Position numbers and translations under genes: made by a program. Under the pieces are notes generated by a model. The model saw only the letters and a program-made list of their open reading frames with translations, made no database searches and was not told the origin of the DNA. DNA of 64,000 nucleotides from Adhaeribacter radiodurans (GTDB lineage Bacteria; Bacteroidota; Bacteroidia; Cytophagales; Hymenobacteraceae), in NCBI RefSeq assembly GCF_014075995.1, contig NZ_CP055153.1, positions 4,092,001 to 4,156,000 of the forward strand, written 5' to 3'. Positions 3 to 34,723 of this stretch are shown piece by piece; the first letter of the stretch is position 1; every line of letters starts with the position of its first letter.

Positions 3-3000
3 AAAAGCAAAGGTGGTTTTGATTACTGGGTAATTAAATTAAACAACAAAGGTACTCAGGAGTGGAACAAGACCATTGGCGGAAGCAATAGCGATCAATT
101 ACATGCTTTGCAACCTACCAGCGATGGGGGTTACCTGCTAGGTGGTGGCTCTCGCTCCAACAATAGCGGCGATAAAACGCAAGATAACCAGGGCATTTTT
201 GATTACTGGGTAGTAAAATTAAACGCTAATGGTTCAAAAGCCTGGGATCTCACTTTAGGAGGGAACGCCGAAGATGCTTTAGAAAATGTTATACAAACAA
301 AGGATAACGGTTATCTTATAGGTGGTTATTCTAAATCTCCTATCTCCGGAACTAAAACAGAAGCAAGTAAAGGCGGTTATGATTATTGGGTAGTAAAATT
401 AGATAATGATACCAAAGCTAAACAAACCATTTCTTTTGCCGCTTTGCCGGAAGTAAATTTTGCAACTCAAAAAACACTTAGTCTAAAAGCTACTGCCAGT
501 TCTGGTTTACCCGTTACCTTTCGGGTTGTTTCCGGTCCGGCTACGGTTAAAGGCAACACGGTAACGTTTAAGGGTGGAAGTGGCACGGTTACCATGGAGG
601 CCTTACAAACTGGTAACGCCAAGTATTACGCCGCTCCCGCCGTTACTCAAACTTTTGTGGTACAGGTTCCGCCCGTAACCCGGCTTTGGAATAAATCTTT
701 TGGCGGCATTCGTACCGAATACCAAAGCCAGGGAAATGAATGTGATAAAATTTTTGGTACCTCTTCTCTTACAGCTATGGTTCGCTCTTCAGATGGGGGT
801 TATTTGCTGGGAGGCACTTCCGATTCTAAAAAAGGGAATGACAAAAGCGACGACCACCTGGGTTCTATTTTAGAGGAACAATGCTTTTCTGATCAGCAAC
901 CTATAACTGATTATTGGATTGTAAAAACCAATGCCAATGGCGAAAAACTTTGGGATAAAACCTTTGGTGGCAACGACCGGGATGAACTAAAAGCAATTTT
1001 GGCCACCCCCGACGGAGGTTACTTACTAGGAGGTTCTTCTAAATCAAACGGGAATGGTAATAAAACACAAGCCAGCCGAGGATATGAAGATTACTGGATA
1101 GTTAAAATATCTGCAAACGGCAATAAAATCTGGGATAAAACCTTTGGCGGTCACCTAGGCGATGTGCTTACCACTTTAATCGCCACTCCCGATGGAAATT
1201 ATTTACTAGGAGGCACGTCGATCTCCGGCAAATCCGGTGATAAAACCGAAGCAGGTATTGGTGGTCAGGAATTTTGGATTGTAAAAATAGATGGGGATGG
1301 TAACAAGATTTGGGACAAAGCTTATGATAACGAAGGCAACGACCTCAGTACTTTACAGTCAATAGTTCCTTCTTCGGATGGCGGCTTCTTATTAGGAGGC
1401 ACAACTTCAATAGATAAAGGCAATTACTGGGTTGTAAAAATTAATAGTCAGGGACTAAAACTTTGGAATAAATCTTTTGGCGGCGATGCATATGATAATC
1501 TATCGGCTTTGGCGAATACTACAGATGGCGGTTACCTTTTAGGCGGTTATTCCAATTCAGGTAAAAGTGGAGATAAGAGTGAGGCAAGCCGGGGCGGTAA
1601 TGATTTCTGGGTGGTTAAAATAGATGAAGCCGGAAAAAAGGTTTGGGATGAAACTATTGGCGGAAATGGTTCTGACTTGCTCTCTGCTTTAATAAAAACG
1701 CCCGATGGAGGTTTCCTGCTCGGTGGTACTACCAACTCTGGCGTGAGTGGCGAAAAAAGTGAAGAAAAGCGAGGCTTAGGTGATTATTGGGTGATAAAGA
1801 TAGACTTCAACGGTGTAATAAGTTGGGATAGAACCTTGGGGGGTACCAATAACAATGAACAATTAAGTTCACTCTTAGTAACTTCAGATGGCAACTTCCT
1901 AGTGGGAGGCTCTTCTTACTCCGAAAATAATGGCGATAAAAGCCAACCTCTTAAAGGAATAAAGGATTTTTGGGTTATCAAGTTAAAAGAAGAAAAGAAT
2001 GCACCGGCTTTAGCTTGGGACATGCGTTTTGGCGGTTCAGGCACCGATAACTTAACCGATGTTATTAAAACCTCCGATGGCGGCTACTTAGCTGGCGGTT
2101 ACTCTGATTCCAAGGTGAGCGGCGATAAATCACAAAACAGTAAGGGCAAAAACGATTATTGGATTGTAAAAACTGATAAAAATGGTAAAAAACTCTGGGA
2201 TAAAAGCTTCGGAGGCTCCGATCAGGACTACCTAAACCGGGTTATTCAAACGCAAGATGGGGGCTACTTACTGGCGGGTTCTTCTTTATCGGGTAAAAGT
2301 GGCGACAAGAGCCAACCTAGTCAGGGCGATCGTGACTTCTGGATCGTTAAAACTGATGCTTTGGGCAACAAACAATGGGATAAAACCTACGGCGGCAGTG
2401 ACTTCGATCAATTTGTAAAAATTATCCAACTCTCTACCGGCGAATTCGTGCTTGGTGGCACTACCAAATCTCCGGTAAACGGCGATGTAAGCCAGAATAG
2501 TCCGGGTTTAAAAGATTACTGGTTAGTCAAAATCAGTTCAACCGGTACTAAAATCTGGGACAAACGCTACGGAGGCAACGGCGATGATCAATTAGGAAGT
2601 TTTACTGAAACCAAAGAAGGTGGCTTTTTACTGGCTGGTTCGTCTTATTCCGGAGCCAAAGGGGATAAAAGTCAAACCAGTAACGGCTTAACCGATTACT
2701 GGGTAGTAAAACTGGATAAAGAAGGGAATAAAATCTGGGATAAAACCTTTGGTAGCCGTCGGGACGATGTACCGGCATCCGTAGCCCGGAGTGGATCAGA
2801 CTTCTATATTGCCGGTACCAATACCACCTACTATAATCCCGAACAAAGCCCCGAAGGTTTTTCGGATAAAGATTACTGGTTAGTAAAAATAGATACAAAC
2901 GGCAACTTATTGTGGGAAAAAACCTTTGGCGGCAAGCAAACCGATGTTCTCCAGGCCAGCACAAGTTTACCAGATGGGGGTATTGTGTTAGGAGGAAGTT

Positions 3001-3584: not shown

Positions 3585-3591
3585 AATTATG

Positions 3592-3660: not shown

Positions 3661-6600
3661 ATGAAAAAACATTTAAAATTTTCACTTCTGCCTTACCCAA
3701 ATGTATTCTTTACCTGCAGGTGGCGCTTCCTATTTATTTTTTTCTTTTTAAACCTAGGTTTCTCTTTTCTAACTTCGGCTCAAAAAATAGAATGGGATAG
3801 ATCTTTGGGCGGTAATGCCATTGATCAATTATACTCGTTGCAGCAAACCCAGGATGGCGGTTATATCTTAGGAGGATTATCGGCTTCCGGACCCAACGGC
3901 GATAAAACCCAGCCAAACAAAGGAGTCAGAGATTATTGGATAGTAAAGCTAAGAGCAAATGGCAGCAAAGAATGGGACAAATCATTCGGCGGTAACCAGG
4001 ATGAAATTTTACAGTTTGTTCAACAAACCACAGATGGGGGCTACATTTTAGGTGGCCATTCTAAGTCAGGGATCAGTGGCGACAAAACTGAAGGCGCTTT
4101 TGGTAATTATGATTTTTGGGTAATAAAAGTAGATGCTCAGGGAAACAAACAATGGGATAAAACCTACGGCGGAGATAAAGACGAACGATTAGTTGAACTG
4201 CAGCAAACCCAGGATGGTGGCTATATTTTAGGTGGTCATTCCAGTTCCGGAGTAAGCGGAAGTAAAACAGAACCCTCCCGAGGGGGCACGGATTACTGGG
4301 TAGTAAAATTACAGGCCGATGGTACCAAAGTTTGGGATAAAACGATTGGCAGTAAAAGCAGCGAAAATTTACAGGCTATCCTGCAAACCCGCGATGGTGG
4401 TTACCTTTTAGGCGGCTCCTCTAGCGGGGTTATAAGCGGCGATAAAACGGAAGAACGACATGATAGATATTCCGATTACTGGGTAGTAAAATTAAATGCA
4501 GGCGGCCAAAAAATTTGGGATAAAACTATTGGCGGCAACCTTAGTGATTACTTATTTTCTCTTCTGCAATTACCAGATGGCGGGTATCTTTTGGGTGGCC
4601 ATTCCAGCTCCGATAAAAGCCATGAAAAAACCGAAGACCACAAAGGCTTTTCTGATTATTGGATCGTAAAGTTAAACCCCGATGGAAGTAAAGGATGGGA
4701 TAAAACTGTCGGCGGAAAACATATTGACGAGTTGGCCTCCATGAAGCTTACCAAAGACGGAGGTATCCTTTTAGGAGGAACATCTAGATCTGGTATTGGG
4801 GCAGATAAATCCGAACCCAATCACGGCTCTTATGATTGGGACTTTTGGGTTGCCAAAGTTAGCGCGAACGGTCAAAAAGTTTTATGGGACAAAACAATAG
4901 GCAGCGAGGGAGATGATTATTTAACAGATTTGCAACAAACGCAGGACAGCGGTTATGTATTGGGCGGCAGATCACCTTCCAGGAAAACGGGTGATAAATC
5001 CGAAGAAGGTAAAGGTTCTACTGATTATTGGGTAGTGAAGCTGGATAATTCCATTAAACTTAAAAACCAGATTACCTTTGAGCCTATTCTAAACAAAGAA
5101 GTCGGCGATCCGGCCTTTCCCCTGGTCGCGAAAGCTACCTCCGGCTTACCCGTCACCTTTGAAGTATTATCCGGTCCCGCCATTATCAAGAATAATAAAC
5201 TAACCATAAAAGGAGCCGGTTGGGTACGGTTGGTCGCTACTCAGGAAGGCAACACCGAGTATGAACGGGTAGTAGATACCACCCAAAGCTTTTTAGTAAC
5301 CCTTACCGGTAAACAATGGCAAAAAAACTATGGCGGTAACAAAACCGATATGTTGAGTACTATGCTTCCTACGCCCGATGGCGGCTACATTATAGGAGGT
5401 ACTTCTAACTCCGATGCTAGTGCCGATAAAAGCCAGAACTCAAAAGGAAACACCGATTTTTGGGTTGCAAAGATAAATGCCTCCGGTCAAAAAGTATGGG
5501 ACAAAACCTACGGCGGCAACCAAGCCGATCAGCTTACTGCTTTGGTGGCTACCCCCGACGGGAATTACTTACTCGGTGGTACTTCTGCTTCTAACTCATC
5601 CGGCGATAAAAGTCAGGCAAGCAATGGTCTGGAAGATTATTGGTTAGTTAAAATAGGCGCTAATGGTACAAAACTCTGGGACAAAACTTTTGGCGGAAGC
5701 CAGTCTGATTGGCTAGCCACAATGGTTACCAGCCTGGATGGCGGCTATTTACTGGGCGGAACATCGGCATCGGATAAAAGTGGAGATAAAAGCCAGCCAT
5801 CCTGGGATACTAACCAAGAGCCCAGCAGCCGCCGGGATTATTGGCTATTGAAACTAGATGCTAACGGCAATAAAATATGGGATAAAACTTACGGCGGCGA
5901 TAAATTTGATAAGCTTACGGCCATTACCCTTAACCCCAAAGGTGGTTATTTAGTAGGCGGTTATTCCTCTTCGGGCATAAGCGGGGATAAAACGCAGCCC
6001 CCCCGTGGCCTGGCAGATTACTGGGTACTCCGGATTGATGAACAAGGTAAAAAAGTATGGGATAATACCTACGGCGGAGTAATTAGTTATTATAACGGAA
6101 AAGGTTACTATGAAGCGGGTGCTTCCCTCCTGAGCAGTATAGTGCCCACTCCTGATGGCGGCTTTTTACTGGGAGGTTCTTCCAGCGCTACCACCGGGGG
6201 AGAAAAAACTAGTCAAACGGCCGGCATGCATGATGAAATATATGATTACTGGGTCGTTAAAATTAATAACAGCGGCAAAAAAGTTTGGGATAAAAGTTAC
6301 GGCGGATTAGTAGTTTATCCCGGACAAATTGGAGTGGGCGAATTCTGGACGTATACCGGAACTTCCAATTTAAGTACCATTATTCCATTGCCCGAAGGCG
6401 GATATTTACTGGCGGGTACTTCTAACGGCGATACCGGCCGGAATAAAAGCGAAGACAACCGCAGTAACATTAGTAAAATAGAAGACGAAAGACAAAAAGA
6501 AGGCTTTACCGAGGTAAAAACTTCGGTATGGAACGATTACTGGCTGGTAAAAATAGATGAGCAAGGCCAATTTATAGTAGACCGCACCATTGGGGGTCAA

Positions 6601-8340
6601 CGCAACGATATGCTGGCATCTGCTATCCGAACCTCCGGAGGCAATATTCTTTTGGGCGGCACCACTTATTCGGACATTGGAGCCGATAAAAATACGGGGA
6701 ACGTGGGTGATGCCGACTTCTGGGTAGTACAGGTACAACCAGATAAAACACCCGAGCCCTTAGCCGCTGCCTGGGACAATCTGTTTGGTAGTTACCGCAA
6801 CGAAGGCTTAACCGATGTTATTAAAACTGCCGACGGCGGCTACTTAACTGCCGGCTTTTCCGACTCATACCCTGGCGGCGATAAAACCCAAAATAATTTA
6901 GGTAAATACGATTACTGGATTGTAAAAACTGACCGGAATGGCAAAAAACTCTGGGATAAAACCTACGGAGGTTCAGATGATGATTTCCTTAACCGAGTTA
7001 TTCAAACGGCTGATGGGGGTTATTTATTAGCGGGTAGTTCTCTCTCAGGCAAGGCAGGCGATAAATCGGAGGCCTCCCTGGGTAAGCGCGATTTTTGGCT
7101 CATAAAAGTGGATGCTACCGGCACGAAACAATGGGATAAAACCTTCGGCGGTTCCGGCGACGATGAACTCAAAAAAGTAATTCAACTATCTACCGGAGAG
7201 TATATAGTAGCAGGCCACAGCAACTCCCCTATTAGCGCGGATAAAACGCAGAGCAGTCAGGGTGGTACCGATTACTGGTTAATGAAAATCAGCAGTACGG
7301 GTAGTAAAATTTGGGATAAACGTTACGGTGGCAACAAGGAAGAAGCACTAGGCAGCTTCACGCAAACCCCCGAGGGTGGCTTTTTACTCGTAGGTACTTC
7401 CTTATCTAATACCAGCGGCGACAAAAGTGAACCCAGCCAGGGCAGCAGCGACTATTGGGCCGTAAAAACGGATCAGAATGGCAACTTACTCTGGGAGAAA
7501 ACTTTTGGAGGCAGCGCCACAGACGAAGCAAATTCGATTGTTCGTAACGGGAATGAGTACTATATTTCGGGTACCAGTTCTTCCAACTCTAGTGGCGAGA
7601 AAAGCGGAAATAACCAAGGCGGAAAAGATTATTGGTTAATTAAAATAGATACCAACGGTACCAAGCTTTGGGACAGAACTTTTGGCGGCAGCCAGGACGA
7701 TGAACTGCGGGCCAGCACCCGTTTAGCGAATGGCCATATTGTTTTAGGCGGCACTTCCTTCTCCGAAGTAAGTGGCACCAAAACCCAGACTAGTCGGGGC
7801 AACAGCGATTTCTGGATCGTAGAAGTAGATGCCGAGGGTAACCCCATGTACGATAAACGCTTTGGTGGCAGCGGTACCGAAGAACTCCGTACCATTTTCC
7901 AAACTTCCGATGGTGGTTTATTGCTGGGTGGCCGTTCCGACTCAAACGTTAGTGGTGAGCATAGCCAAACCAGTTGGGGCCGTAGTGATTACTGGTTGGT
8001 GAAAGTAGCTCCGGAAAGTATAACCTCGAGCGCCGCCGTTGTTGCTCGTCAGGCATTTGCACCGGAAGTAACTCCGCAGATTAGTTTGTTAAACGCTTTT
8101 CCTAACCCAGTCCGGGAAAAAGTAACGGTTCAGTTTAGCTTGCCACAAACTCAGGCAGTTAGCGTAAAAATTTACGACAGCCAAGGGCAGGAGGTAAAAA
8201 CTTTGTTCCAGGGAGAAGCGCAGGCAAACCAAACTTACCAGCTGGAATGGCAAGCTGGCAATAAACCGGCCGGCCTGTATTTCTTGCAGTTACAAACCCC
8301 AACCAAGCAGCAACAGCAAAAACTACTTTTAACCAAGTAA
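3661..8340 (+). CDS. Giant secreted three-propeller protein with MBG insert and T9SS sorting domain
   Basis: 1559 residues. An N-terminal hydrophobic stretch ending ...FLTSAQ is a signal peptide. Blades are then countable by their D-G-G-Y-x-L-G-G cores: seven at about residues 41-465, an MBG/Ig-like domain (E-V-G-D-P-A-F type) at about 470-550, seven blades at about 550-1035, a short linker rich in Pro/Glu, seven blades at about 1036-1475, and a T9SS type A domain at about 1478-1559 (N-A-F-P-N-P-V ... L-L-L-T-K). Total 21 blades. Two blades of the middle propeller carry long insertions that recur in the broken paralogue at 15238-19907, so these two genes are close relatives. The gene is 76 bp after its upstream paralogue and may be read with it, subject to the intervening hairpin. 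Expected to be exported by Sec then T9SS to the cell surface; function unknown. Confidence 0.92.
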   Translation: MKKHLKFSLLPYPNVFFTCRWRFLFIFFFLNLGFSFLTSAQKIEWDRSLGGNAIDQLYSLQQTQDGGYILGGLSASGPNGDKTQPNKGVRDYWIVKLRANGSKEWDKSFGGNQDEILQFVQQTTDGGYILGGHSKSGISGDKTEGAFGNYDFWVIKVDAQGNKQWDKTYGGDKDERLVELQQTQDGGYILGGHSSSGVSGSKTEPSRGGTDYWVVKLQADGTKVWDKTIGSKSSENLQAILQTRDGGYLLGGSSSGVISGDKTEERHDRYSDYWVVKLNAGGQKIWDKTIGGNLSDYLFSLLQLPDGGYLLGGHSSSDKSHEKTEDHKGFSDYWIVKLNPDGSKGWDKTVGGKHIDELASMKLTKDGGILLGGTSRSGIGADKSEPNHGSYDWDFWVAKVSANGQKVLWDKTIGSEGDDYLTDLQQTQDSGYVLGGRSPSRKTGDKSEEGKGSTDYWVVKLDNSIKLKNQITFEPILNKEVGDPAFPLVAKATSGLPVTFEVLSGPAIIKNNKLTIKGAGWVRLVATQEGNTEYERVVDTTQSFLVTLTGKQWQKNYGGNKTDMLSTMLPTPDGGYIIGGTSNSDASADKSQNSKGNTDFWVAKINASGQKVWDKTYGGNQADQLTALVATPDGNYLLGGTSASNSSGDKSQASNGLEDYWLVKIGANGTKLWDKTFGGSQSDWLATMVTSLDGGYLLGGTSASDKSGDKSQPSWDTNQEPSSRRDYWLLKLDANGNKIWDKTYGGDKFDKLTAITLNPKGGYLVGGYSSSGISGDKTQPPRGLADYWVLRIDEQGKKVWDNTYGGVISYYNGKGYYEAGASLLSSIVPTPDGGFLLGGSSSATTGGEKTSQTAGMHDEIYDYWVVKINNSGKKVWDKSYGGLVVYPGQIGVGEFWTYTGTSNLSTIIPLPEGGYLLAGTSNGDTGRNKSEDNRSNISKIEDERQKEGFTEVKTSVWNDYWLVKIDEQGQFIVDRTIGGQRNDMLASAIRTSGGNILLGGTTYSDIGADKNTGNVGDADFWVVQVQPDKTPEPLAAAWDNLFGSYRNEGLTDVIKTADGGYLTAGFSDSYPGGDKTQNNLGKYDYWIVKTDRNGKKLWDKTYGGSDDDFLNRVIQTADGGYLLAGSSLSGKAGDKSEASLGKRDFWLIKVDATGTKQWDKTFGGSGDDELKKVIQLSTGEYIVAGHSNSPISADKTQSSQGGTDYWLMKISSTGSKIWDKRYGGNKEEALGSFTQTPEGGFLLVGTSLSNTSGDKSEPSQGSSDYWAVKTDQNGNLLWEKTFGGSATDEANSIVRNGNEYYISGTSSSNSSGEKSGNNQGGKDYWLIKIDTNGTKLWDRTFGGSQDDELRASTRLANGHIVLGGTSFSEVSGTKTQTSRGNSDFWIVEVDAEGNPMYDKRFGGSGTEELRTIFQTSDGGLLLGGRSDSNVSGEHSQTSWGRSDYWLVKVAPESITSSAAVVARQAFAPEVTPQISLLNAFPNPVREKVTVQFSLPQTQAVSVKIYDSQGQEVKTLFQGEAQANQTYQLEWQAGNKPAGLYFLQLQTPTKQQQQKLLLTK

Positions 8341-8439: not shown

Positions 8440-11400
8440 ATGGTGGTTTTTTATTCTTTCTGGCGGCACTGGCACACACGCAATTTAATACGCGATTTTA
8501 GTATTACCTTTCTCATTTTTCTTAGTTTTTCCTTTTCCACCCCGGCTCAAAACATACAATGGGATAAAACCATTGGTGGGGATCAAATGGACTATTTGTA
8601 TTCCGTTCAGCAAACTAAAGATGGCGGTTACATTTTGGGCGGGAGTTCTGAATCGGGTATCAGCGGAGATAAAACGCAAAGCCGGAAAAGCAAAACCTCC
8701 GGTGCCGATTATTGGGTAGTAAAATTAAATGCGGATGGCAGCAAATCCTGGGATAAAACCTTTGGTGGAACCAAAGACGATCAATTAATTGCCGTACAAC
8801 CTACCCCTGATGGCGGTTACCTATTGGGCGGCTACTCTACTTCTGAAAATAACGGTAATAAATCCGCCCCCAGCAAAGGAGGTGCAGATTATTGGATTGT
8901 AAAAATAGATGCTCAAGGCAATAAAGTTTGGGATAAATCTTACGGCGGCAATGCGGGTGAAATTTTAACTTTAATCCAGCCAACTAAAGAAGGCGGGTAT
9001 ATTCTAGGCGGTTCTTCCACTTCCGGTATTAACGGCGATAAAACCGAATCTTCCCGGGGAGGCGCAGATTTTTGGTTTTTAAAGATAGATACCTACGGCA
9101 ATAAGCTCTGGGATAAAACCATAGGTTCAAGAGCTATAGATCATCTAAGCGCCTTTTACCAGACCAGCGATGGGGGCTTTATTTTAGGGGGCTCACCTTC
9201 GGCCGACATTGGAGGAGAAAAGTCAGAGAACAGCAAAGGCTATAATGATTTCTGGGTAGTAAAATTAAACGCCGATGGCAGCAAAGCCTGGGACAAAACC
9301 ATTGGCGGCGAAGGAAATGAAATACTATACGCTATTCTACAAACCTTAGACGGCGGTTATATCCTGGGCGGTTGGTCTAATTCTGAACCTGCCGGTGATA
9401 AAACAGCCTCAAAGAAAGGTGATTCTGATTATTGGGTAGTAAAACTCAATGCCAAGGGTACGATCCAGTGGGATAAAACGTACGGCGGCAAAGGGGTAGA
9501 TGAATTAAAAACGATGCAACCCACCCGCGATGGCGGCTTCATTTTAGCCGGCGATTCTAAATCAGATAAAAGCATCGATAAATCCGAAGATAACCGCGAC
9601 CCTACTTTCGACGATTATGGGGAGCATAGCACCGATTTCTGGCTGGTAAAAATTAAAGCAGACGGCACCGAATTATGGGACAAAACATTAGGAACAAGCG
9701 AATTTGATTTATTAACCTCCTTACAACAAACCTCTAATGGGGGTTATATTCTGGGAGGGTATTCCTCGTCGGGTATTAGCGGCGACAAAACTGAAGTTAG
9801 TAGAGGCGGTAGTGATTACTGGGTATTAAAATTAGATAACCACGAGAAACAAACTCAAAAAATCTTCTTCGATTCTATTCCGGATATTAATTATGTACAG
9901 CAAAAAACTTTATCCTTAAAAGCTACTGCTACCTCCGGTTTGCCCGTCAGCTTTAGTGTGGTTCAAGGACCAGCGACGGTTAAGGGCAATACCTTAACAT
10001 TTACCGGCCAAGGCGGTTTAGTAATTGTAAAAGCTACCCAGGCAGGCAATGCTGATTTTTACCCAGCCACTGAAGTGAACCATAGCTTTATGCTGAATAA
10101 TAGTCAAACCTGGAGCGTGCGCTTCGGCAGTTCAGATGGGGATCCCCTAACATCGGTTATCAAAACCTCTGATGGTGGCTATCTGGCTGGCGGGTATTCT
10201 TTATCGGGCAAAAATGGGGATAAAACCCAAAATAGCCAGGGCAGCGCCGATTACTGGATTGTGAAAACAAACCGTTACGGTAAAAAACTTTGGGATAAGC
10301 GTTTTGGCGGTACCGGTCCGGATTATCTGAGCCGCGTTATTCAAACCTTAGATGGCGGCTATTTATTGGCAGGTTCTTCTTTATCAGGCAAAAATGGCGA
10401 TAAAACCCAAACTAGCCAACACGGCCACGATTATTGGATTATAAAAATAGATGCAGCCGGCAATAAACAATGGGACAAGCGTTATGGAGGAACGGGTGCC
10501 GATAGATTAATAAAAGTGGTTCAGCTTAAAACCGGCGAATACATGTTAGGTGGCTACAGTAACTCTCCGGCCAGCGGCGATAAAAGTCAAAATAGTTGGG
10601 GCGAAAATGATTTCTGGCTGGTAAAAATCAGGGCTACCGGTACTAAAATCTGGGATAAACGGTACGGTGGCTCCCAAGACGAAACTTTAGGTAGCTTCAC
10701 CGAAACCCGCGACGGAGGATTTTTACTGGGCGGCGATTCTTTTTCAGAAATAAGCGGCGATAAAACGCAAGCCAATCGTGGTTCCAATGACTTTTGGGTA
10801 GTACGGGTAGACAAAGACGGTAATAAACTTTGGGATAAAACCTTTGGCGGCAAAGGCGGCGAGAAAGCTATTACCGTTGGGCGCAGCCACGGCGAGAACT
10901 TTTTTATTGCCGGTTCCAGTACCTCTGGCAAGAGCAACGATAAATCCCAGGATTTACGAGGAAATATAGGTGCATCGGATTTCTGGATCGTAAAAATAGA
11001 TGCCAAGGGTAATAAAATTTGGGATAAAGGCTTTGGCGGAGATAATATCGACTTTCTGGAAGCCGGTACTTATACCTTCGAGGGAAGCTACGTAATAGCA
11101 GGTACCTCCTACTCCGGAGCCACTGCTGATAAAAGCGAGGAAAATCGCGGCCGCAGTGACTACTGGGTGGTAAAAATAGATGCTAACGGGAATAAACAAT
11201 GGGATAAAACATTTGGCGGAATGAGGGAAGAAGAAGTAAGTACCGTATTTCAAACAACCGATGGCGGCCTGCTGGTCGGAGGTCATTCCGATTCGGAGAT
11301 AAGCGGTGATGTTACTCAACCGGAACAAGGCCGCAGTGATTATTGGCTTCTAAAAATTTCACTAGATAGTTTAAATACTGCAGATAACTTAGCCAGCCGA

Positions 11401-21550: not shown

Positions 21551-24500
21551 ATGAGAATACTTTTACACCACTTCTACTTGCTATTTCGGGTACGAACAAA
21601 GACTTATTGGAAGCAACGCTATAGTCTTTTTATTTTATTGGCTTTTCCCGTAGCTGCATCGGCTCAAAACATTCAATGGGACAAAACCCTTGGCGGAAAT
21701 TTAAAAGAGAATTTAAGCATAACCTTGCCAACTGAGGATGGAGGCTTTATTTTAGGAGGAAGTTCAAATACGCGCAAAAACGGCGACAAATCGCAAATTA
21801 ACCGAGGACCAGCCAACACCTTTGATATTTGGTTAGTAAAGTTAAACCCTAATGGCTCTATTGCCTGGGATAGAACTTTAGGCGGAGATAAAAACGAGGG
21901 GGTATTATCCCTGTTGCAAACCAAAGATGGTGGTTACCTTGTGTTAGGCTATTCAAATTCTGGAATCTCAGGGGACAAAACCCAGGAAGGAGAAAGATGG
22001 CTAGTAAAATTAAATCCCGATGGTACCATTGCCTGGGACAAAGCTTTTCCGGATGGCTTATGGAAGATACTGCAGCAGACCAGCGATGGCGGGTATCTTA
22101 TAAATGGCTATACCACCACAGGGCCTACTTACCGCGAAAATGAATATTGGTTAGTAAAGTTAAGCGCGGCTGGCTCTGAGATCTCCAGAAAAATAATTTA
22201 CAAAAGAACTACGCCGCAAGATTCTTCCAATGCTAACCTATGGTTTACTTTAATGCCTGATGGAGGATATGTAGTGGGCGGCTATACCAACCCTCCTTTA
22301 AATGGTTTTAAACCATTCAGGGTTTGGTTAGTCAGGTTCAAAGCCGATTTAACCAAGCAATGGGAAAGATCTATTCCGGTAGCAGTCAATGATGGTTTAC
22401 CTTCCCTTCAACCCACCAAGGATGGTGGATTAGTGCTAGCCGGTTATGCGCACGTAGGGCCAGGACCATACAAAAGCGAACCCAGCCGGGGAGGTCAGGA
22501 TTTTTGGTTAATAAAGCTGCGCAATGATGGTACCCAGGAATGGAATAAAACGTTGGGAGGTAGTGGCAACGACGAATTAAATGATATTTATCCGACCAAA
22601 GACGGCGGCTACTTATTAGGCGGTAATTCAAGTTCTAACAGCACCGGCGATAAAACGCAAAATAAACTGGGCGCATTTGATTATTGGGTAGTAAAAGTAA
22701 ATGAAAAAGGGCAGAAAATTTGGGACCTAACTTTAGGCGGTGGTAATGCCGATTATCTAACCTCCGTTCTTCAATCCCAAAATGGGAGTTATTTTGTATC
22801 TGGCTATTCTATATCAGAAAAATCTGGTAACAAAACAGAAGCCAGTAAAGGAGGTTATGATTACTGGGTAGTAAAGCTGGATAATACAGAGCGGCAAAAA
22901 CAAATTATTACTTTTGAATCCGTACCCACCATTAATTATGCTACTCAAAAAATTGTTAACCTCCAGGCAAATGCCAGTTCCGGTTTGCCTGTAAGTTACA
23001 CCTTGGTTTCAGGGCCTGCCACTTTAAAAAATAATAAGCTTACGCTTACCGGCGGCAGCGGTATAGTAACGGTAAAGGCTGCCCAGTCCGGGAACAATAA
23101 CTTCTTTCCGGCTCAGGAGGTTTTTGCCCGCATTTTAGTAAATGTACCACCTGTTACCCGAATCTGGGATAAAGCTTACGGCGGTATTATTACTGAATAC
23201 CCTACCCAATTCGGTGATTGTGATAAAATATTTGGTGCCTCTACTATTGCTGCTATGGTTAACACTCCGGGGGGAGGTTACTTGCTGGGAGGTACTTCCG
23301 AATCAAAAAAAGGTAACGATAAAAGTGAAGATCATCGGGGCAGTATTTCGTCTGCACAATGCTATCGTGATCAGCAAACGATAAGCGATTATTGGATTGT
23401 AAAAACGGATAGTAATGGCAAAAAGCTGTGGGACAAAACTTTTGGCGGAAACGACCGGGATGAATTGAGCGCTTTAATAACTACCCCGGATGGCGGCTAT
23501 TTACTTGGCGGTTCTTCCCGATCCGATGGCAATGGTAATAAAACAGAAGCTAGCCGAGGTTACGAAGATTATTGGATTGTAAAAACGGATGCTACCGGCA
23601 AGAAGCAATGGGATAAAACTTTTGGTGGTAATAATGGGGATAATTTAACCTCTCTGGTGGCCACTCCGGATGGCGGTTATTTAGTAGGTGGATATAGCCG
23701 TTCTCCAATAAGTGGTGATAAGACCCAGGGAGGAACTGGCTCGGAAGAATTCTGGATTATTAAAATTGATAGCAACGGCAATAAAGTATGGGATAAAATT
23801 TTTGACAGTGCCGGCACAGATAGCAGCATTCTTACTTCCATGCTAGCTTTATCAGACGGCAGCTTTATTCTGGGCGGTTCTTCCAATCCACGGCCGGGCG
23901 GGCAAGGATTTTACGATTACTGGGTAGTAAAAATTGATGCTGCAGGTAATAAATTGTGGGATAAAGTTTTTGGCGGCGATAATTATGATTTCCTGAAAGT
24001 AATGCTTCCCAGCCAGGATGGTGGCTATTTACTGGGTGGCTATTCCACTTCCGGTAAAACCGGCGACAAAACGGAAGAAAGCAAAGGTCTGGACGATTAT
24101 TGGCTCGTTAAGATTGATGCCAACGGGAATAAACTGTGGGATAAAACCTTCGGTGGCAATAAGGAGGATAGACTTTCGGCAATGATAAACACACCGGATG
24201 GCGGCATTTTACTAAGCGGCAATTCTCTTTCTGGAATAAGTGGAGATAAAAGCGAAGCCTTTAAAGGAGAAGACGATCATTGGTTAATAAAGCTGGATGC
24301 AAGTGGCAAAAAACTTTGGGACCGAACCATAGGAACGTATAATTCAAATTATGATTACGTTGATCATCCTTCTGTTTTGTTAGCCACTCCCGATAACAGT
24401 TATTTAGTAGGCGGTTCTTCTCTGGTAGGAATTAACGGCGATAAGAGTGAACCCCTAAAAGGATATCGGGATTATTGGGTAGTTAAAATTAAAGAAGAAT

Positions 24501-26433: not shown

Positions 26434-29400
26434 ATGAAAACACATCTACCTGGCTTCAATGGGAATGCTAATTATTCGAACCTGATTGCTTATTGGTTCT
26501 GGTGGAGTGCCCTCGTGCTCGTACTGGTTAGTTACAGTTTTCTGGCTTCGGGGCAAAATAAAGTTTGGGATAAAACTATTGGGAGTAATCAGAGCGATGG
26601 TTTAGCTTTTATAGAACAAACCAAGGATGGGGGCTATATTGTGGGTGGTACTTCTGACGGCCGGGCTTCAGGTGATAAATCTCAATCAACGAGAGGGGGT
26701 TCGGATTATTGGATTATAAAATTAAAAGCAGATGGTACGAAAGCCTGGGATAAAACCTTTGGCGGTCAGGACAATGATAATCTGACATCTCTTCACCAAA
26801 CCCAGGATGGCGGCTATATTCTAGGTGGTACTTCGGAGTCGGGAATTGGTGGTGAAAAATCTCAACGTAAAAAAGGAGAATCGGATTATTGGGTGGTTAA
26901 ACTAAAGGCCGATGGCACGAAAGCTTGGGATAAAACGTACGGTGGAAGTAATTCAGATAATTTACGTACGGTACAACAAACTAATGATGGCGGCTACATT
27001 CTAGGGGGCAGTTCTACCTCCGATAACACCGGCGACAAAACAGAGCCCAATAAGGGAGGGCGCGGTAACAGTAATTATTGGGTGGTAAAACTAAATGCTA
27101 CCGGCGACAAAGAATGGGATAAAACCATAGGTTCGAATGAGTCTGATACGTTTATTACTTTGCAACAAACAATAGATAACTGTTATATTCTGGGGGGTAA
27201 CTCTTATGCTGGCAAAGGCGGGGATAAATCGCAAGGCCAAAAAGGAGGTTACAAATACGCCGATGATTTATGGATAGTAAAGTTAAAATCGGATGGCAAC
27301 AAAGAATGGGATAAAACCATAGGTGGCAGTGATTTCGATTATTTAGGTGCACTGCAGCAAACTCAGGATGGCGGCTATATTCTCGGTGGTTCCTCCGATT
27401 CTGACCGCGGCAGCGACAAAAGTGAGAACAGTAACCGAAGCTTTGATTATTGGGTGGTGAAACTAGATGCCAGTGGCGGCAAAATTTGGGACAAAACCGT
27501 AGGCGGTAATAGAAGGGATTACTTAAGTGCCTTGCAACAGACTAAGGATGGTGGCTATATTCTGGGAGGTTATTCTGATTCGGATATTAGTGGAGATAAA
27601 TCCCAGAAGTCCTATAATGATGAAAATAATTTTAATAGCAACGATTATTGGATTGTAAAGCTGAATGCTACTGGTACTTTCGTTTGGGATAAAACCATTG
27701 GGGGTAATAAAAATGATTATTGCCGAACAGTACATCCAACCAGTGATGGCGGTTATATTATTGGCGGTACGTCTCCTTCGGGAGTAAGTGGCGATAAAAC
27801 CGAGCCCAACCGAGATCCGGAAAATCAGGGTGGCTCAGATTTTTGGGTAGTAAAATTAGGTAACCAGGAAGTTGATTTAATTCAATCCATCCAATTTAAA
27901 CCCATTATTTATAAAACCTTCGGTGATGCTCCTTTTACTTTATCGGCAACAGCTAGTTCCGGCTTACCGGTTTCATTTACAGTAGAATCTGGCCCTGCTA
28001 CTATTAAGGAAACTACACTCTCTTTAACCGGAATAGGACAAGTTACAGTTAAAGCTACCCAAGCCGGCAATACCCATTATAAACCTATCACCGCCACCCA
28101 AACCTTTCTTGTTCAGGCACCCGGCTCAGCAAAGAAAATATGGGATAAAAGCTTTGGCGGTAATAAATCTGATAACCTCAACGCAATAGTAGCTACTACG
28201 GATGGGGGATATTTACTAGGCGGTTTTTCATCTTCGGAAAACTCCGGCGATAAAAGCCAGAATAGCCAAGGGTATGAGGATTATTGGATTATTAAAACCA
28301 ATGCTACCGGCAGCAAATTGTGGGATAAACGTTTTGGCGGCACTAACGCCGATCATCTCACCGCTTTGTTGGCTGCCCCCGATGGCGGTTATTTGTTAGG
28401 GGGTTACTCCCGTTCCGGCCGAACCCGCGATAAAAGTGAAAACGGAGGGGGAGTAGAAGATTACTGGGTGATTAAGATTGATTCCTTGGGTAATAAGCTT
28501 TGGGATAAAACTTTTGGTGGAATTTATACCGACAAATTATCGGCAATGGTTCTTACCTTGGATGGAGGTTATCTGCTTGGCGGGTCTTCCAACTCTAGAA
28601 CTTCCGAAGATCCCAACGGTGTAGTAAAAGGCTACTCAGATTATTGGGTAATTAAAATAGATGCGACGGGTAATAAAATTTGGGATAAAACGTACGGCGG
28701 CGACTATATAGATGATATAAACTCCCTGCTACCTACTCCCGACGGAGGATACCTATTGGGTGGTTCTTCTGGTTCTAATAAAAGCGGCGATAAATCCGAA
28801 GCGAATAAAGGCTTTTTCTATACTCCCGACTACTGGCTGGTAAAAATTGATGGTACCGGCAAAAAGCTCTGGGATAAAACCTACGGAGGAGAAAGTGATG
28901 ACAATTTAAAATCCCTTATCCAGACACCAGACGGGGGTTACCTGTTAGGCGGTTCCTCAAGTTCCAATGCTGGAGCAGATAAAAGTGAAAATAGCAGAGG
29001 TTCTAATGATTATTGGGTAGTTAAAATTGATAAAGAGGGTATTAAACTCTGGGATAAAACGTACGGAGGAAACCAGGATGATAATTTAACAACGTTGCTA
29101 CCGCATGCAGGGAGTGGTTACATTTTAGCCGGTTCTTCCTTTTCTGATAAAGGTGCCGAAAAAAGTGAGGACACCAGAAAAATGGAGGGGCAATTCCGAA
29201 ATAGTACTGATTACTGGATAGTAAAAATAAATGAAAACGGGGAAAAAGACTGGGATAAAACTATTGGCGGTTCAAATGGCGATAACCTTACTACTGCCGT
29301 AATAGGTGTTTTGGGTAATTACGTTCTGGGTGGCTATTCTTGGTCCGACATTGGTGCCGACAAAAGTGAACCCACTTTGGATAAGACGTATGCTGGCCTA

Positions 29401-31071
29401 AATGAATCCGGAGATTACTGGATCGTGAATTTAGAAATCAAAGACAATCAGCTACTAGAAACTGCCTGGAATATGCGCTATGGGGGCTCAGGTACGGATA
29501 ATTTTACTTCTCTCATTCAAACCCCGGACGGAGGTTATTTATCGGGCGGATATACCAACTCGGGTAACAACGGCGACAAAAGCCAAAACAGCCAGGGGAA
29601 AAACGATTACTGGATTGTAAAAAGCGATAAGAACGGCAAAAAACTCTGGGACAAGCGTTACGGCGGTAATGAGGATGATTTTCTGAACCGCATCATTCAA
29701 ACTATGGATGGTGGTTACTTATTGGCGGGCTCTTCGCTATCGGGTAAGAGCGGCGATAAATCGGAGGCGAGTAAAGGCAACCGCGATTTTTGGCTCGTAA
29801 AAATTGATAAGCAAGGCACTAAAGAATGGGATAAAAGCTTCGGCGGCTCAGGCTACGACGAACTGAAAAAAGTAGTGCAGCTCTCTAACGGAAATTACAT
29901 AATGGCGGGCTCCAGCAATTCCCCGGCAAGTGGCGACAAAAGCCAGGACAGCCAAGGCGGTACAGATTACTGGATAGTGAAAATTAACGCTACTGGCGAT
30001 AAAATTTGGGATAAACGCTTTGGTGGTAATTTAGATGAAACCTTAGGCAGCTTTAGCCTGACCAGTAATAATAGCATTTTATTAGGAGGCACTTCTCTAT
30101 CCGGGGCTAACGGCGATAAAACGCAGACTAGCCGCGGCGGGAAAGATTTCTGGCTGGTGCAACTCGATAGTACGGGTGCTAAAACCTGGGACAAACGCTT
30201 TGGCGGTCCCGGCGACGACGAACTTTTCTCTATGGGCTTTAATCGTTTATTAAGCGAACAATCTTACTCGGCTGGCGATTATTTTGTAGGTGGCGCCAGT
30301 ACTTCGGGTAAGGGAGGCGATAAAACCCAAGCGAACCAAGGCGGTAAAGATTTCTGGCTGGTGCAACTGCATAGCAACGGCAACCTGGTTCGGGATTTGA
30401 GTTATGGCGGCAGCGCTAACGACGAGTTACGGGCTGCTATACAAACCCAAGCCGGCGATTATGTGCTGGCTGGTACTTCTTTTTCGGGTCAGAGTGGAGA
30501 TAAAACGCAAGCGAGTAAAGGAGGCAGCGATTATTGGTTGGTAAAGATAGATGCTTTCGGAAACAAACTCTATGATCAGACTTACGGGGGCAGCGGCAAC
30601 GAAGAACTCCGCTACCTGCAACGCACTAGTGAAGATGGCTTCGTACTCGGCGGCCGGTCCAATTCAGATGTCAGCGGCGATAGAACGCAACCCAGTCAGG
30701 GAGGTACCGATTATTGGCTCATGAAAGTGGCTCCTGCTGCTAGTGTTTTTACTATTTCCCTAAGGCAAAGTACTACTTTAATTGAACCAGATGTTTTTAC
30801 TAATCAGGTACAAGTCTATCCTAATCCCTTTACCGATCTGGTAACAATTTCTTTAACTCTGGCGCAACCAGCTGCCATAAGTTTACAAATATATACGCCA
30901 ACCGGGCAACAGCTTCGGCAAATAGATTTTGGCGTGTTACCAGCGGGTAAACAACAATTGCCTTGGAATGGCAAAGACAACCAAAACCAATTCGTAAAGC
31001 CCGGGCTTTACCTGTATCGCACCGTCGTGAATGGTCAGTTAAGAACTGGTAAATTATTTAAAACCGAATAA
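26434..31071 (+). CDS. Giant secreted three-propeller protein with a divergent T9SS sorting domain
   Basis: 1545 residues from the ATG at 26434 (MKTHLPGF); an in-frame ATG 60 bp upstream adds a non-signal-like leader. Signal peptide ends ...FLASGQ. Seven blades, MBG/Ig-like domain (about 482-565), seven blades (about 567-1005), linker, seven blades (about 1010-1440): 21 in all. The C-terminal domain (about 1458-1545) begins V-Y-P-N-P-F but then follows a different T9SS type A subtype (Q-I-Y-T-P-T-G-Q-Q, F-V-K-P-G-L-Y-L-Y-R, ending L-F-K-T-E) from the L-F-Q-G ... L-E-W-Q-A-G-N-K-P-A-G-L-Y-F subtype of its neighbours, as if the sorting domain had been exchanged. Surface-exposed or released; ligand unknown. 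Confidence 0.92.
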   Translation: MKTHLPGFNGNANYSNLIAYWFWWSALVLVLVSYSFLASGQNKVWDKTIGSNQSDGLAFIEQTKDGGYIVGGTSDGRASGDKSQSTRGGSDYWIIKLKADGTKAWDKTFGGQDNDNLTSLHQTQDGGYILGGTSESGIGGEKSQRKKGESDYWVVKLKADGTKAWDKTYGGSNSDNLRTVQQTNDGGYILGGSSTSDNTGDKTEPNKGGRGNSNYWVVKLNATGDKEWDKTIGSNESDTFITLQQTIDNCYILGGNSYAGKGGDKSQGQKGGYKYADDLWIVKLKSDGNKEWDKTIGGSDFDYLGALQQTQDGGYILGGSSDSDRGSDKSENSNRSFDYWVVKLDASGGKIWDKTVGGNRRDYLSALQQTKDGGYILGGYSDSDISGDKSQKSYNDENNFNSNDYWIVKLNATGTFVWDKTIGGNKNDYCRTVHPTSDGGYIIGGTSPSGVSGDKTEPNRDPENQGGSDFWVVKLGNQEVDLIQSIQFKPIIYKTFGDAPFTLSATASSGLPVSFTVESGPATIKETTLSLTGIGQVTVKATQAGNTHYKPITATQTFLVQAPGSAKKIWDKSFGGNKSDNLNAIVATTDGGYLLGGFSSSENSGDKSQNSQGYEDYWIIKTNATGSKLWDKRFGGTNADHLTALLAAPDGGYLLGGYSRSGRTRDKSENGGGVEDYWVIKIDSLGNKLWDKTFGGIYTDKLSAMVLTLDGGYLLGGSSNSRTSEDPNGVVKGYSDYWVIKIDATGNKIWDKTYGGDYIDDINSLLPTPDGGYLLGGSSGSNKSGDKSEANKGFFYTPDYWLVKIDGTGKKLWDKTYGGESDDNLKSLIQTPDGGYLLGGSSSSNAGADKSENSRGSNDYWVVKIDKEGIKLWDKTYGGNQDDNLTTLLPHAGSGYILAGSSFSDKGAEKSEDTRKMEGQFRNSTDYWIVKINENGEKDWDKTIGGSNGDNLTTAVIGVLGNYVLGGYSWSDIGADKSEPTLDKTYAGLNESGDYWIVNLEIKDNQLLETAWNMRYGGSGTDNFTSLIQTPDGGYLSGGYTNSGNNGDKSQNSQGKNDYWIVKSDKNGKKLWDKRYGGNEDDFLNRIIQTMDGGYLLAGSSLSGKSGDKSEASKGNRDFWLVKIDKQGTKEWDKSFGGSGYDELKKVVQLSNGNYIMAGSSNSPASGDKSQDSQGGTDYWIVKINATGDKIWDKRFGGNLDETLGSFSLTSNNSILLGGTSLSGANGDKTQTSRGGKDFWLVQLDSTGAKTWDKRFGGPGDDELFSMGFNRLLSEQSYSAGDYFVGGASTSGKGGDKTQANQGGKDFWLVQLHSNGNLVRDLSYGGSANDELRAAIQTQAGDYVLAGTSFSGQSGDKTQASKGGSDYWLVKIDAFGNKLYDQTYGGSGNEELRYLQRTSEDGFVLGGRSNSDVSGDRTQPSQGGTDYWLMKVAPAASVFTISLRQSTTLIEPDVFTNQVQVYPNPFTDLVTISLTLAQPAAISLQIYTPTGQQLRQIDFGVLPAGKQQLPWNGKDNQNQFVKPGLYLYRTVVNGQLRTGKLFKTE

Positions 31072-31137: not shown

Positions 31138-31171
31138 ATTAAATTTTATATTATAAATTGTAAAAACTTAA

Positions 31172-31210
31172 AAAACAAAGCCTCGGTAAATGCCGGGGCT
31201 TTGTTTTTTT
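31172..31210 (+). terminator. Strong intrinsic terminator
   Basis: AAAACAAAGCCTCGG pairs with CCGGGGCTTTGTTTT (one wobble) around a 6-base loop and is followed by a run of T. It should end transcription from the gene at 26434. Confidence 0.85.
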
Positions 31211-31756: not shown

Positions 31757-34723
31757 ATGAAAAATGTCTATTTCCAAGTAGTATACCCCTTTGTGTTGTC
31801 TGTGGGCTTCTGTGGCTGGCTGCAGCGGCTCTTTCTACTGCTCCCATTTATCTGTTTTTGTAATTCTGTTTCGGCGCAAAGTATTGTCTGGGAAAGCACC
31901 TTTGGCGGTCGCGTTTCCCAAGACGATCAAGATAATGTAAATAACGGCCGCTCGCAGTTAGGTTCCATTATTAACACTCCGGATGGCGGTCAGTTAATTG
32001 GTGGAAAATCGGATGCGGAAGTAGGTTTTGATAAGACACAACCCCGACTGGGCAGATTTGATTACTGGCTGGTAAAAACAAATAAAAATGGGCAGAAGCA
32101 GTGGGATAAAGTTTTGGGTGGCCGCGGCCAGGAAGAATTTGGCGCCGTTATTTCCACGCCAGATGGCGGTTACTTAGTGGGGGGCACTTCCGACTCCCCG
32201 ATAGGAGATGATAAAAGCGAGGCAAGCAAAGGCGGTTCTGATTATTGGATTGTAAAACTGGATAGTACGGGCACTAAACAATGGGACAAAACTTTGGGCA
32301 GTACTAATTACGATCAGTTAAGAGCCTTAGCTGCTATCCCGGACGGGGGCTATTTATTGGCGGGCAGCTCTAATTCCAGAACGGGCGGAAATAAAACGGA
32401 ATCTGGTAATGGAAACAATGATTATTGGATTGTTAAAATAGATAGCAGCGGTGCCGTGCAGTGGGATAAGACTTTGGGTGGCCGGAATCTGGATTACCTG
32501 GTAAACGTGAAAGCTACCGCCGACGGGGGCTTTCTGTTGGCCGGCGAAACCGATTCGGTAACGTACGAAAAAGACAGCACCCGATTTACAGTAAGAACCA
32601 GGAACTTTAACGTAATAAAAATAGATACTAACGGTACCGAACTGTGGAATAAAACTTATTACAAACCTTACAATACCCCGCTCAAAGATTTTGTATCTAC
32701 TCCCGACGGTAATTACTTATTAGTAGGCAGCAACTATTTACTAAAAGTTAATGAAAACGGTATTCAGCTTTTAGAAAGAAATCTTTCCCGGTTCCTTCAG
32801 GCCAATAAAGAATTAGAATCGGTTTTAGCTACTCCCGATGGCGGGTATTTACTGGGTACCAACGGCCTCTACACCAACAATAATCAGGAGAATAACCGTA
32901 ACGAAGATTTCCGGCTAGTGAAGCTCGATGCAAATGGCATTTACTTGTGGGAGGGCTCTTATGGCGGCAATGGGTTTGATTTTCTTACGGATGTTATTCT
33001 AACCAACAACGGAAATTACCTGTTAGGCGGTTTTACTTCTTTAAGCGACGGCTTCGATAAAACTAATGGCATAAAAGGTGAATTTGATTATTGGGTAGTA
33101 AAAGTAAAAGAAGAGCAAAAACCCGATTTAATCTCCTGGAATTTACGTTACGGCGGCACTTTACAAGATAATTTTACCCAGGTAATTCAAACGGTAGATG
33201 GCGGCTATTTACTGGGCGGCTATTCTCTTTCGGATAGTACCGGCGACAAATCACAGGTTAAGCAAGGCGGTTATGATTTTTGGGTAGTAAAAACCGACGA
33301 TAAGGGGAACAAAATCTGGGACAAAACTTATGGTGGTACGGGTAACGATTACCTCAACAGTATCCTGGAATTACCCGAAGGCGGCTTTTTACTCGGTGGA
33401 AGTTCCGAGTCCGGTATTGGCGGCGATAAAACGGAAACGAACCGAGGCAGCCGGGATTTCTGGGTTATCCGCCTGGACTATAAAGGCGATTTAATTTGGG
33501 ACCATACTTACGGCGGAACCGGCACCGAAGAATTACGCAAGATTCGACCTTTGCCTCGCAACGGTTATTTAGTAGCCGGCAGCAGTAATTCGCCGGTTAG
33601 CGGCGATAAAAGCCAACCTAGCCAGGGATTACAGGATTATTGGTTACTTCGCATTGATAACCAAGGTCAGAAACTTTGGGACCAACGTTACGGCGGTAAT
33701 TCCAACGATAATTTAGCTGATTTACTCGTTAGCCCAGACGGCAGTATTTTATTGGGCGGCACTTCCAATTCGCGGGTTAACGGCAACAAGACTCAAGCCA
33801 GCCGGGGCGGCTCCGATTATTGGGTTGTTAAAACAGATAGCACCGGGCAATTGCTGTGGGATAAACGTTTTGGTGGCTCGGAACAGGATAACCTTTTTGC
33901 TATAGCCAGTTCACCCACTGGAGAATACTTACTGGCCGGCCAAAGTCTTTCGGAAGATACGGGGGATAAATCGCAGCCCAGCCAAGGCAACCAGGATTTT
34001 TGGTTAGTAAAAATAAATAATAACGGTAATAAAATTTGGGATAAAGCTTTTGGGGGCAAAGGTAAAGAAGAACTGCGCTCTTTAGTGATTACCCGCGAAG
34101 GCGGATACGTGTTAGGAGGAACTTCTTTTTCGGGGCGTAACGGCAATAGAACCCAGAATACCCGGGGCGGCGGCGATTACTGGCTCGTGAAAACCGATAG
34201 CTCCGGTGCCCAGCTTTGGGATTATCGTTTTGGGGGCAACGGCGACGATGAACTCCGGATGGTACAAGAAACCAGAGAAGGAGGATTAATTATTGGAGGA
34301 CGAACTAACTCCGGAATTGGCGGCGATAAAACGCAGCCAAATTGGGGTAATACCGATTATTGGTTAGTAAGATTATCTGCCACCGGCGTTGGCTATGTAA
34401 ATCTAGATACTCCACCCACTAATTTAACCCCTCCTCTCACCCCCCCTGCCCTAGCTACCACCCTAAATTTTATAGCGTATCCTAATCCATTTTCGACCCA
34501 ACTTAAGGTACACTTTAAAGTACCGCGCCCACAAACAATTACGGCCCAAATCTACGATGGTAAAGGCTTACTATTAGCTACTCTTTTTGAAGGGGAAGTA
34601 CAAGCAAATAAAACGTATGCGTGGCAATGGCAGCCCCCAACCTTCGTGCAACCCGGTTTATATTTTCTGCGCGTGCAGACTTATGATAAAGTTTATTACC
34701 AGAAAGTACTGCTTGCCAGATAA
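31757..34723 (+). CDS. Secreted two-propeller T9SS protein, most divergent array member
   Basis: 988 residues. Signal peptide ends ...NSVSAQ. Seven blades to about residue 455, a short linker (K-V-K-E-E-Q-K-P-D), seven blades from about 459, and a T9SS type A domain at about 904-988 (I-A-Y-P-N-P-F ... K-V-L-L-A-R). There is no MBG insert. Several blades of the first block are degenerate (no GG or G-D-K-S/T motifs in the fifth and sixth) yet the count is still seven. The second block lacks the exact L-N-R-V-I-Q-T / K-V-I-Q-L signatures of the others (here L-N-S-I-L-E-L and K-I-R-P-L), so this is the most distant member. It is last in the array, followed by a terminator and unrelated genes. Confidence 0.92.
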   Translation: MKNVYFQVVYPFVLSVGFCGWLQRLFLLLPFICFCNSVSAQSIVWESTFGGRVSQDDQDNVNNGRSQLGSIINTPDGGQLIGGKSDAEVGFDKTQPRLGRFDYWLVKTNKNGQKQWDKVLGGRGQEEFGAVISTPDGGYLVGGTSDSPIGDDKSEASKGGSDYWIVKLDSTGTKQWDKTLGSTNYDQLRALAAIPDGGYLLAGSSNSRTGGNKTESGNGNNDYWIVKIDSSGAVQWDKTLGGRNLDYLVNVKATADGGFLLAGETDSVTYEKDSTRFTVRTRNFNVIKIDTNGTELWNKTYYKPYNTPLKDFVSTPDGNYLLVGSNYLLKVNENGIQLLERNLSRFLQANKELESVLATPDGGYLLGTNGLYTNNNQENNRNEDFRLVKLDANGIYLWEGSYGGNGFDFLTDVILTNNGNYLLGGFTSLSDGFDKTNGIKGEFDYWVVKVKEEQKPDLISWNLRYGGTLQDNFTQVIQTVDGGYLLGGYSLSDSTGDKSQVKQGGYDFWVVKTDDKGNKIWDKTYGGTGNDYLNSILELPEGGFLLGGSSESGIGGDKTETNRGSRDFWVIRLDYKGDLIWDHTYGGTGTEELRKIRPLPRNGYLVAGSSNSPVSGDKSQPSQGLQDYWLLRIDNQGQKLWDQRYGGNSNDNLADLLVSPDGSILLGGTSNSRVNGNKTQASRGGSDYWVVKTDSTGQLLWDKRFGGSEQDNLFAIASSPTGEYLLAGQSLSEDTGDKSQPSQGNQDFWLVKINNNGNKIWDKAFGGKGKEELRSLVITREGGYVLGGTSFSGRNGNRTQNTRGGGDYWLVKTDSSGAQLWDYRFGGNGDDELRMVQETREGGLIIGGRTNSGIGGDKTQPNWGNTDYWLVRLSATGVGYVNLDTPPTNLTPPLTPPALATTLNFIAYPNPFSTQLKVHFKVPRPQTITAQIYDGKGLLLATLFEGEVQANKTYAWQWQPPTFVQPGLYFLRVQTYDKVYYQKVLLAR

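Follow-up and report, generated by a model that had tools for sequence, protein, structure and literature searches.

The window analysed here, a stretch of 64,000 nucleotides from Adhaeribacter radiodurans (G000:C2:4092001-4156000, G000 being the 6.94 Mb source genome), carries a tandem array of genes whose products are made of repeated propeller blades (Table 1). We counted these blades with a family-trained profile of 60 positions, built from the family of the source genome, in which the number seven is not encoded. The profile reproduced the preliminary description, which had counted 14 or 21 blades per complete gene in blocks of seven: the genes at 3661, 21551 and 26434 have 21 blades, and those at 8440, 12149 and 31757 have 14. 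The gene at 15238-19907, said to hold 21 blades when repaired, yielded 7 + 14 in two open reading frames (ORFs) split by a frameshift, and the first gene, read as 2 (cut), 7 and 7 blades, turned out to have 21 (7+7+7) when followed into the genome. Even the degenerate first rings of the 21551 and 31757 genes were found to keep seven as claimed, with seven profile matches each, rated above chance; their weakest blades score 9.9 and 19.7 bits, respectively, while other blades mostly score 50-95 bits. The further claim that all window proteins are multiples of seven held for every complete gene, but had missed the ORF at 21025-21459, which has one blade and sits just upstream of the 21551 gene. 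The identification of the linkers between the blocks as MBG domains found no support, since none of 14 linkers matched an MBG model at E ≤ 1 (Pfam, NCBIfam). These linkers of about 89 residues gave weak matches to Ig-like domains instead (Big_1 in 2/14, intimin models in 5/14).

Table 1. Features of the propeller array in the window, with the positions of their parts.
Feature	Position	Strand	Parts and basis
Three-ring protein, 5' end beyond the window	3..3584	+	Blade profile; whole gene ~G000:C2:4091.0-4095.6 kb; final two ring-1 blades; ring 2 up to 1994; ring 3 2016-3254; tail 3255-3581
Ig-like linker span of the 3..3584 protein	411-743	+	Span also includes the start of ring 2
Three-ring protein, 21 blades	3661..8340	+	Rings 3793-5049, 5317-6744, 6772-8010; linker 5050-5316; sorting tail 8011-8337
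Two-ring protein, 14 blades	8440..11694	+	Rings 8560-9843, 10111-11361; linker 9844-10110; sorting tail 11362-11691; AlphaFold model
Two-ring protein without linker domain, 14 blades	12149..15145	+	Rings 12278-13543, 13565-14809; tail 14810-15142
Broken three-ring gene, 5' part	15238..16923	+	Signal peptide; ring 1 15382-16662; larger part of the Ig-like linker
Broken three-ring gene, 3' part	16890..19907	+	Rings 16914-18335, 18363-19583; tail 19584-19904
Protein with a single response-regulator domain, flanked by two family genes	20083-20526	-	PF00072 match
Deletion remnant, 144 aa	21025..21459	+	A single frame with signal peptide, one blade and sorting tail
Three-ring mosaic protein, 21 blades	21551..26125	+	Rings 1-2 21677-24499; linker 22889-23164; ring 3 24521-25801; tail 25802-26122
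Three-ring protein, 21 blades	26434..31071	+	Rings 26566-27864, 28141-29436, 29467-30732; linker 27865-28140; tail 30733-31068
Two-ring protein, no linker domain, first ring degenerate	31757..34723	+	Rings 31889-33115, 33137-34387; tail 34388-34720; AlphaFold model

The proteins had been put forward as type IX cargo, which is supported by the sorting tails on the proteins and by a PorU sortase gene in the genome. TIGR04183 scored above its 23-bit cut-off in all six proteins scanned, PF18962 scored above 27 bits in four of the five tailed proteins scanned (26.2 in the 31757 protein), and the PorU gene (G000:C2:5055720-5059097) reached 1383.6 bits against a cut-off of 420. In type IX cargo of this kind, a Q would be expected directly behind the signal-peptide cleavage site; a Q precedes the first blade by 4-9 residues in 92 of the 93 tailed ORFs with an N-terminal ring, the sole exception being 16890..19907, the 3' part of the broken gene. 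Cleavage of the signal peptide would fall directly before this Q, shortly ahead of the first WDxxxGG strand. Export of the family is very probably by the type IX system, and the proteins probably reach the cell surface.

The borders of the blocks bear on how the blades are arranged. In ORFs with multiples of seven, the profile match stopped at model position 52-56 in 224 of 265 seventh blades, as compared to 18 of 1,590 blades one to six; each block of seven therefore opens on a single outer strand, WDxxxGG, and has DYWxVK at its end. Within a block, the opening strand is predicted to complete the last blade, the order expected for 1+3 ring closure. A segmentation that took no account of number returned 243 of 273 runs with exactly seven blades, and split 12 of 105 proteins otherwise (e.g. 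after blade 3 of ring 3). AlphaFold models were computed for the 8440 protein (pLDDT 81.9, pTM 0.49, 16 sequences) and the 31757 protein (pLDDT 77.4, pTM 0.53, 10 sequences), and by a count of the listed elements each of the four rings has 28 strands, arranged as 1 + 6x4 + 3, the degenerate first ring of the 31757 protein among them. Because of the pTM values, the geometry from ring to ring, on which the stiff rod proposed earlier would depend, is not fixed in these models. The top Foldseek match for both was CylK (E 2.1e-22 with an rmsd of 4.1 across 441 columns, and E 8.2e-24 with an rmsd of 10.9 across 518 columns), which was also found by sequence with HMMER (phmmer E 5.6e-32; profile E 2.9e-56). 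The closed seven-bladed propellers proposed earlier are thus upheld by the strand order at the borders, the 28-strand model rings, the homology to CylK and the complete genes of relatives (see below), and each block of seven almost certainly closes into a seven-bladed ring.

CylK is a cytoplasmic natural-product enzyme, a cyanobacterial Friedel-Crafts alkylating one. Its C-terminal propeller (PDB 7ron/7fh6) is the nearest solved relative by both sequence and fold and is seven-bladed like the window rings. According to its description (eLife 2022, PMC8916777), this propeller has seven blades with calcium at each blade junction, and the active site lies between the ring and an N-terminal calcium-binding domain, with residues from both. 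CylK differs from the family in pairing one ring with a calcium-binding catalytic partner and in having neither a type IX tail nor an array. Its kinship could mean that the window rings are enzymes too, with active sites as in CylK or Vgb, but Pfam reports no CylK-type N-terminal calcium-binding domain in the window proteins; judged by this domain content, an enzymatic family is highly improbable. The fold matches also included 1l0q (E 6.8e-7), an archaeal surface-layer protein with a YVTN propeller, which we take to be seven-bladed, and PKD domains. It resembles the family in outline, with a ring beside an Ig-like domain on the cell surface, but belongs to another propeller family and uses another export route. 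The best family match of the repeats was to the SBBP-repeat propellers of the LipL53 family (NCBIfam NF047494), at up to 139 bits and far below the 400-bit cut-off for membership; as opposed to the window proteins, that family is a lipoprotein family and not type IX cargo. The delta-60 repeat (TIGR02608) gave at best 28.3 bits against a cut-off of 76.5, and no Pfam propeller model reached its own cut-off on the family proteins scanned. For highly repetitive propellers, Pereira and Lupas (2022; PMC9218822) describe amplified blades with more than 60% blade identity and a continuum of blade numbers, with peaks at 7 and 14 blades in WD40-like members. The Adhaeribacter family differs from these both in its mean within-ring identity (0.456-0.486 by ring class) and in coming in whole sevens.

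The window cluster is one of several in the source genome. The stretches fetched from this genome hold at least 58 ORFs with three or more blades, which amount to at least 53 genes (47 unbroken and 6 broken; a lower bound in which the pieces of one broken gene are joined). Family ORFs take up at least 216,216 bases, or 3.1% of the genome, and account for 52 of its 133 type IX sorting-tail matches (E ≤ 0.001). For annotation, this means that much of the type IX cargo of some Adhaeribacter belongs to one family. Four of the eight Adhaeribacter genomes gave 253, 205, 182 and 150 matches; the other four, of which one is 78% complete, gave 29, 27, 9 and 5. The expansion was thus found in the source genome and in three of the seven others, namely G003, G004 and G007 (Adhaeribacter swui), from which clusters and some single loci were fetched. 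Some family match was present in all 100 Hymenobacteraceae genomes sampled. Twelve stretches from outside the four expanded genomes contained 13 complete ORFs, all with 7, 14 or 21 blades, and a further ORF, which is cut, with 5. Outside the genus, most named relatives consist of one seven-bladed ring, and the raw count is a multiple of seven in 26 of 40 ORFs (three or more matches each); the remaining 14 comprise five ORFs cut at the end of the locus, one with a stray match of 2 bits, two in which a single blade gave two half matches, both parts of a gene split by a frameshift, one weak case and three short ORFs.

The four expanded genomes together provided 130 ORFs with three or more blades, 105 of which are multiples of seven. 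Among these 130, 102 have both a tail and a complete start, 26 are fragments that belong to 14 broken genes, and two are multiples of seven whose first blade is incomplete. The tailed ORFs with a complete start are multiples of seven in 99 cases by raw count and in two more on inspection (G000_3829505, seven plus a stray eighth match of 1.1 bits, and G004_5833489, one blade of which went unscored by the profile), leaving one of 5+7+7. One of the multiple-of-seven ORFs was then set aside as the 3' part of the broken window gene (16890..19907). This leaves 101 intact genes in the fetched stretches of the four genomes, and 100 of them have 7, 14, 21 or 28 blades, with 28 in the four-ring gene G004_4230564. 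The sole intact exception, G000_3536755 (5+7+7), has had its N-terminal ring shortened from seven to five by an in-frame deletion relative to its orthologue G003_2615668, with which it is paired at 99% support in the base-ring tree. Unbroken rings of the wrong size were seen in three of the 14 broken genes, of which all but G007_5533937 were resolved: a ring of one blade in G000_1749929, a ring of eight in G000_1754060 (where a second ring reads as six across frames) and a ring of six in G003_4285158. A changed blade number is thus associated with broken (3/14) rather than intact (1/102) genes (Fisher p 0.005). In G000_6206421, two neighbouring blades are identical in 180 of 180 bases and the ring still has seven. 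The rule of seven therefore stands for all but one of the intact genes, and fails for that gene and for the three broken ones. As to relatives with six, eight or varying numbers, which had been named as evidence that would speak against closed seven-bladed rings, the 13 complete ORFs in the twelve stretches from outside the expanded genomes are all multiples of seven; other numbers do exist, mainly in broken genes. Blade number mutates, and intact genes hardly show changed numbers.

This contrast between broken and intact genes would be meaningless if the breaks were errors of sequencing or assembly, as might be suspected from the fact that most are one stop or one frameshift and that all are known from the assembled sequence alone. 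Yet three of the 14 broken genes also have changed blade numbers and one carries both a frameshift and a stop. Moreover, in the window's broken gene, where inspection of the sequence places the loss of frame near the end of the linker, the 301 bases examined at the frameshift hold no homopolymer of ≥6 A/T or ≥5 G/C. We therefore regard such errors as an unlikely source of the contrast. Homopolymer slippage acting as a switch was likewise rejected, given the window frameshift and three breaks in the source genome that are in-frame stops. A second reading is plain inheritance from a seven-bladed ancestor, with whole genes and rings being copied and neither special selection nor a repertoire involved. 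The mostly single seven-bladed rings of the relatives outside the genus (26/40) would fit with this, as would the seven blades of CylK, and the 101 intact genes are not independent, because the constancy of seven is partly inheritance. However, single-blade changes do arise (G000_3536755, the three broken genes, the window remnant and G000_6206421) and are nearly absent from intact genes, and we consider that plain inheritance, though conceivable, is doubtful as the whole account, and that selection against other blade numbers is likely.

The rings of one protein are not equally conserved. In 90 intact two- and three-ring proteins, the closest-matching blade came from the same ring and position for 609 of 630 blades of the C-terminal ring, as compared to 82 of 175 in the head ring of two-ring proteins, 270 of 455 in the middle ring of three-ring proteins and 145 of 455 in their N-terminal ring. 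The C-terminal rings are conserved and the head rings are variable. Per 100 blades, about 200 residues are inserted after model position 44 in head rings and 15 in the C-terminal ring, and the middle ring has insertions at model positions 7-9 as well. The sites fall in the loop that joins strands b and c and in the one that joins neighbouring blades, both of which should lie on the top face, as follows from propeller geometry and the description of CylK; variation among the heads would accordingly be concentrated in loops on a single face. Between paralogues, head rings are at background similarity (median 0.47-0.49). In six orthologue pairs selected for a single history, dN/dS was 0.05-0.09 for base rings and 0.09-0.16 for heads, values that are rough at a dS of about 1; with dN/dS at 0.05-0.16, the genes are therefore kept. 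The same values (≤0.16 in the six single-history pairs) speak against a strong arms race in these pairs, and positive selection on the loops is not proposed.

Such proteins could form a structural coat or matrix, as a surface layer or as extracellular fibre material, with many copies serving dose. The very high copy number, the strong purifying selection and the presence of the archaeal surface-layer protein 1l0q among the fold matches would suit a coat, but a uniform coat needs neither heads at background similarity nor insertions in the loops of one face, which makes this explanation rather improbable. As to the heads being binding modules instead, as the variability of the loops and the number of copies might suggest, we are evenly divided; if they are, the loops most likely bind surface glycans or neighbouring cells.

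Parts of the family are also combined with other domains. At four loci (L009, L001, L002 and L022), the base ring with its tail comes after a GEVED-bearing subtilase (Peptidase_S8 119.3 bits) or after GEVED proteins, the latter with sub-threshold reprolysin matches, and the bases attached in this way fall within the family tree. At three others (L015, L018 and L004), N-terminal seven-bladed rings are followed by PKD domains, or by a CBM_35 domain, and a sorting tail.

Comparison of base rings yielded 27 reciprocal-best pairs, 14 of which are at least 80% identical in the base ring and 13 of these have comparable heads. Identity between the heads of these 13 pairs is 71-88% in five, 60-65% in two and 44-54%, i.e. 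background, in six, three of which lie within one genome. Bases and heads thus often differ in history. The 21551 gene follows G003_2620272 in rings 1-2 (42-90% per blade, as compared to 31-62% for G003_2610673) and G003_2610673 in ring 3 (83-97%, as compared to 54-75% for G003_2620272), with the best match switching at the border of rings 2 and 3 and the tail favouring neither (69 and 65%). G003_2591182 follows the window gene 3..3584 after the signal peptide up to blade 3 of ring 3 (77-97% per segment), and from blade 4 of ring 3 follows G000_4087631 (75-91%), in register. Both of these clear mosaics involve window genes; automatic scans flagged 1 of 90 proteins under the strictest, 2 under the strict and 7 under the relaxed setting. 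In light of these comparisons, recombination between heads and bases seems to us highly likely. The nearest neighbours of head-ring blades had also suggested shuffling of blades between positions, which was rejected since matches of ≥80% nearly always keep their position. Shifted head matches over runs of three blades showed no clear excess either: at 0.62-0.68 they numbered 2245, 563 and 74 versus 1714, 393 and 65 in one permuted set, and at 0.70 were below that set (13 versus 23). The base tree mixes species, with 41 label changes where shuffled labels give a mean of 53.7 and the least possible is 3; the array therefore predates these species and went on expanding in each of them.

The explanation we favour, with some reserve, is that these are modular type IX proteins composed of whole rings, with a constant base and varied heads, that recombine in register. 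Outside the cell, each run of seven blades would close into one propeller, its first strand completing the seventh blade. The C-terminal ring and sorting tail would form the constant base, on top of which one to three head rings would stand, often after an Ig-like domain. The repertoire would grow by tandem duplication, change by whole rings and be mixed by homologous recombination in register, and copies that gain or lose single blades would be unable to close the ring and would mostly be lost.

While the fold is known, the array, with its constant base, heads in sevens, in-register recombination and blade-number mutants, appears to be new, and we found no account of such propeller arrays in Adhaeribacter in the open-licence literature. 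More tentatively, the array might be a recombining repertoire of surface receptors, in which whole-ring heads are interchangeable on a constant base and tail, ring closure discards out-of-register exchange, and the variable faces recognise surfaces, kin or competitors. If so, such a repertoire would vary in quanta of seven blades and would be a bacterial counterpart of the variable surface repertoires of pathogens and animals. It would join a constant export base to exchangeable closed rings in at least 53 genes of one genome, and would be a natural experiment on how a repeat number is kept, blade gains and losses standing beside intact copies in the same genomes. The array would then lend itself to tests of self-recognition, attachment or prey binding in soil Bacteroidota.

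Relatives and neighbours of the family were noted further afield. A Methanosarcinales record (L049) holds a relative with 14 blades, 7+7 by count, and haloarchaeal plasmids match the family at 25-28% identity. A phage origin was dismissed, the C-terminal ring being matched by only 2 of 50,697 phage records, at 26-27% identity, as was a role as defence genes, PADLOC giving no match for three window proteins at E ≤ 0.01. A family gene with 21 blades (G004:C2:37569-41912, L090; its first blade at the edge of the frame) lies on a contig of 103 kb, perhaps a plasmid, for which a search of plasmid records gave no near match. The A. swui plasmid NZ_CP055155.1 (L114) carries a base-ring gene that adjoins hxsB, hxsC and hxsD of the His-Xaa-Ser system, and response regulators lie nearby, as at 20083-20526 in the window.
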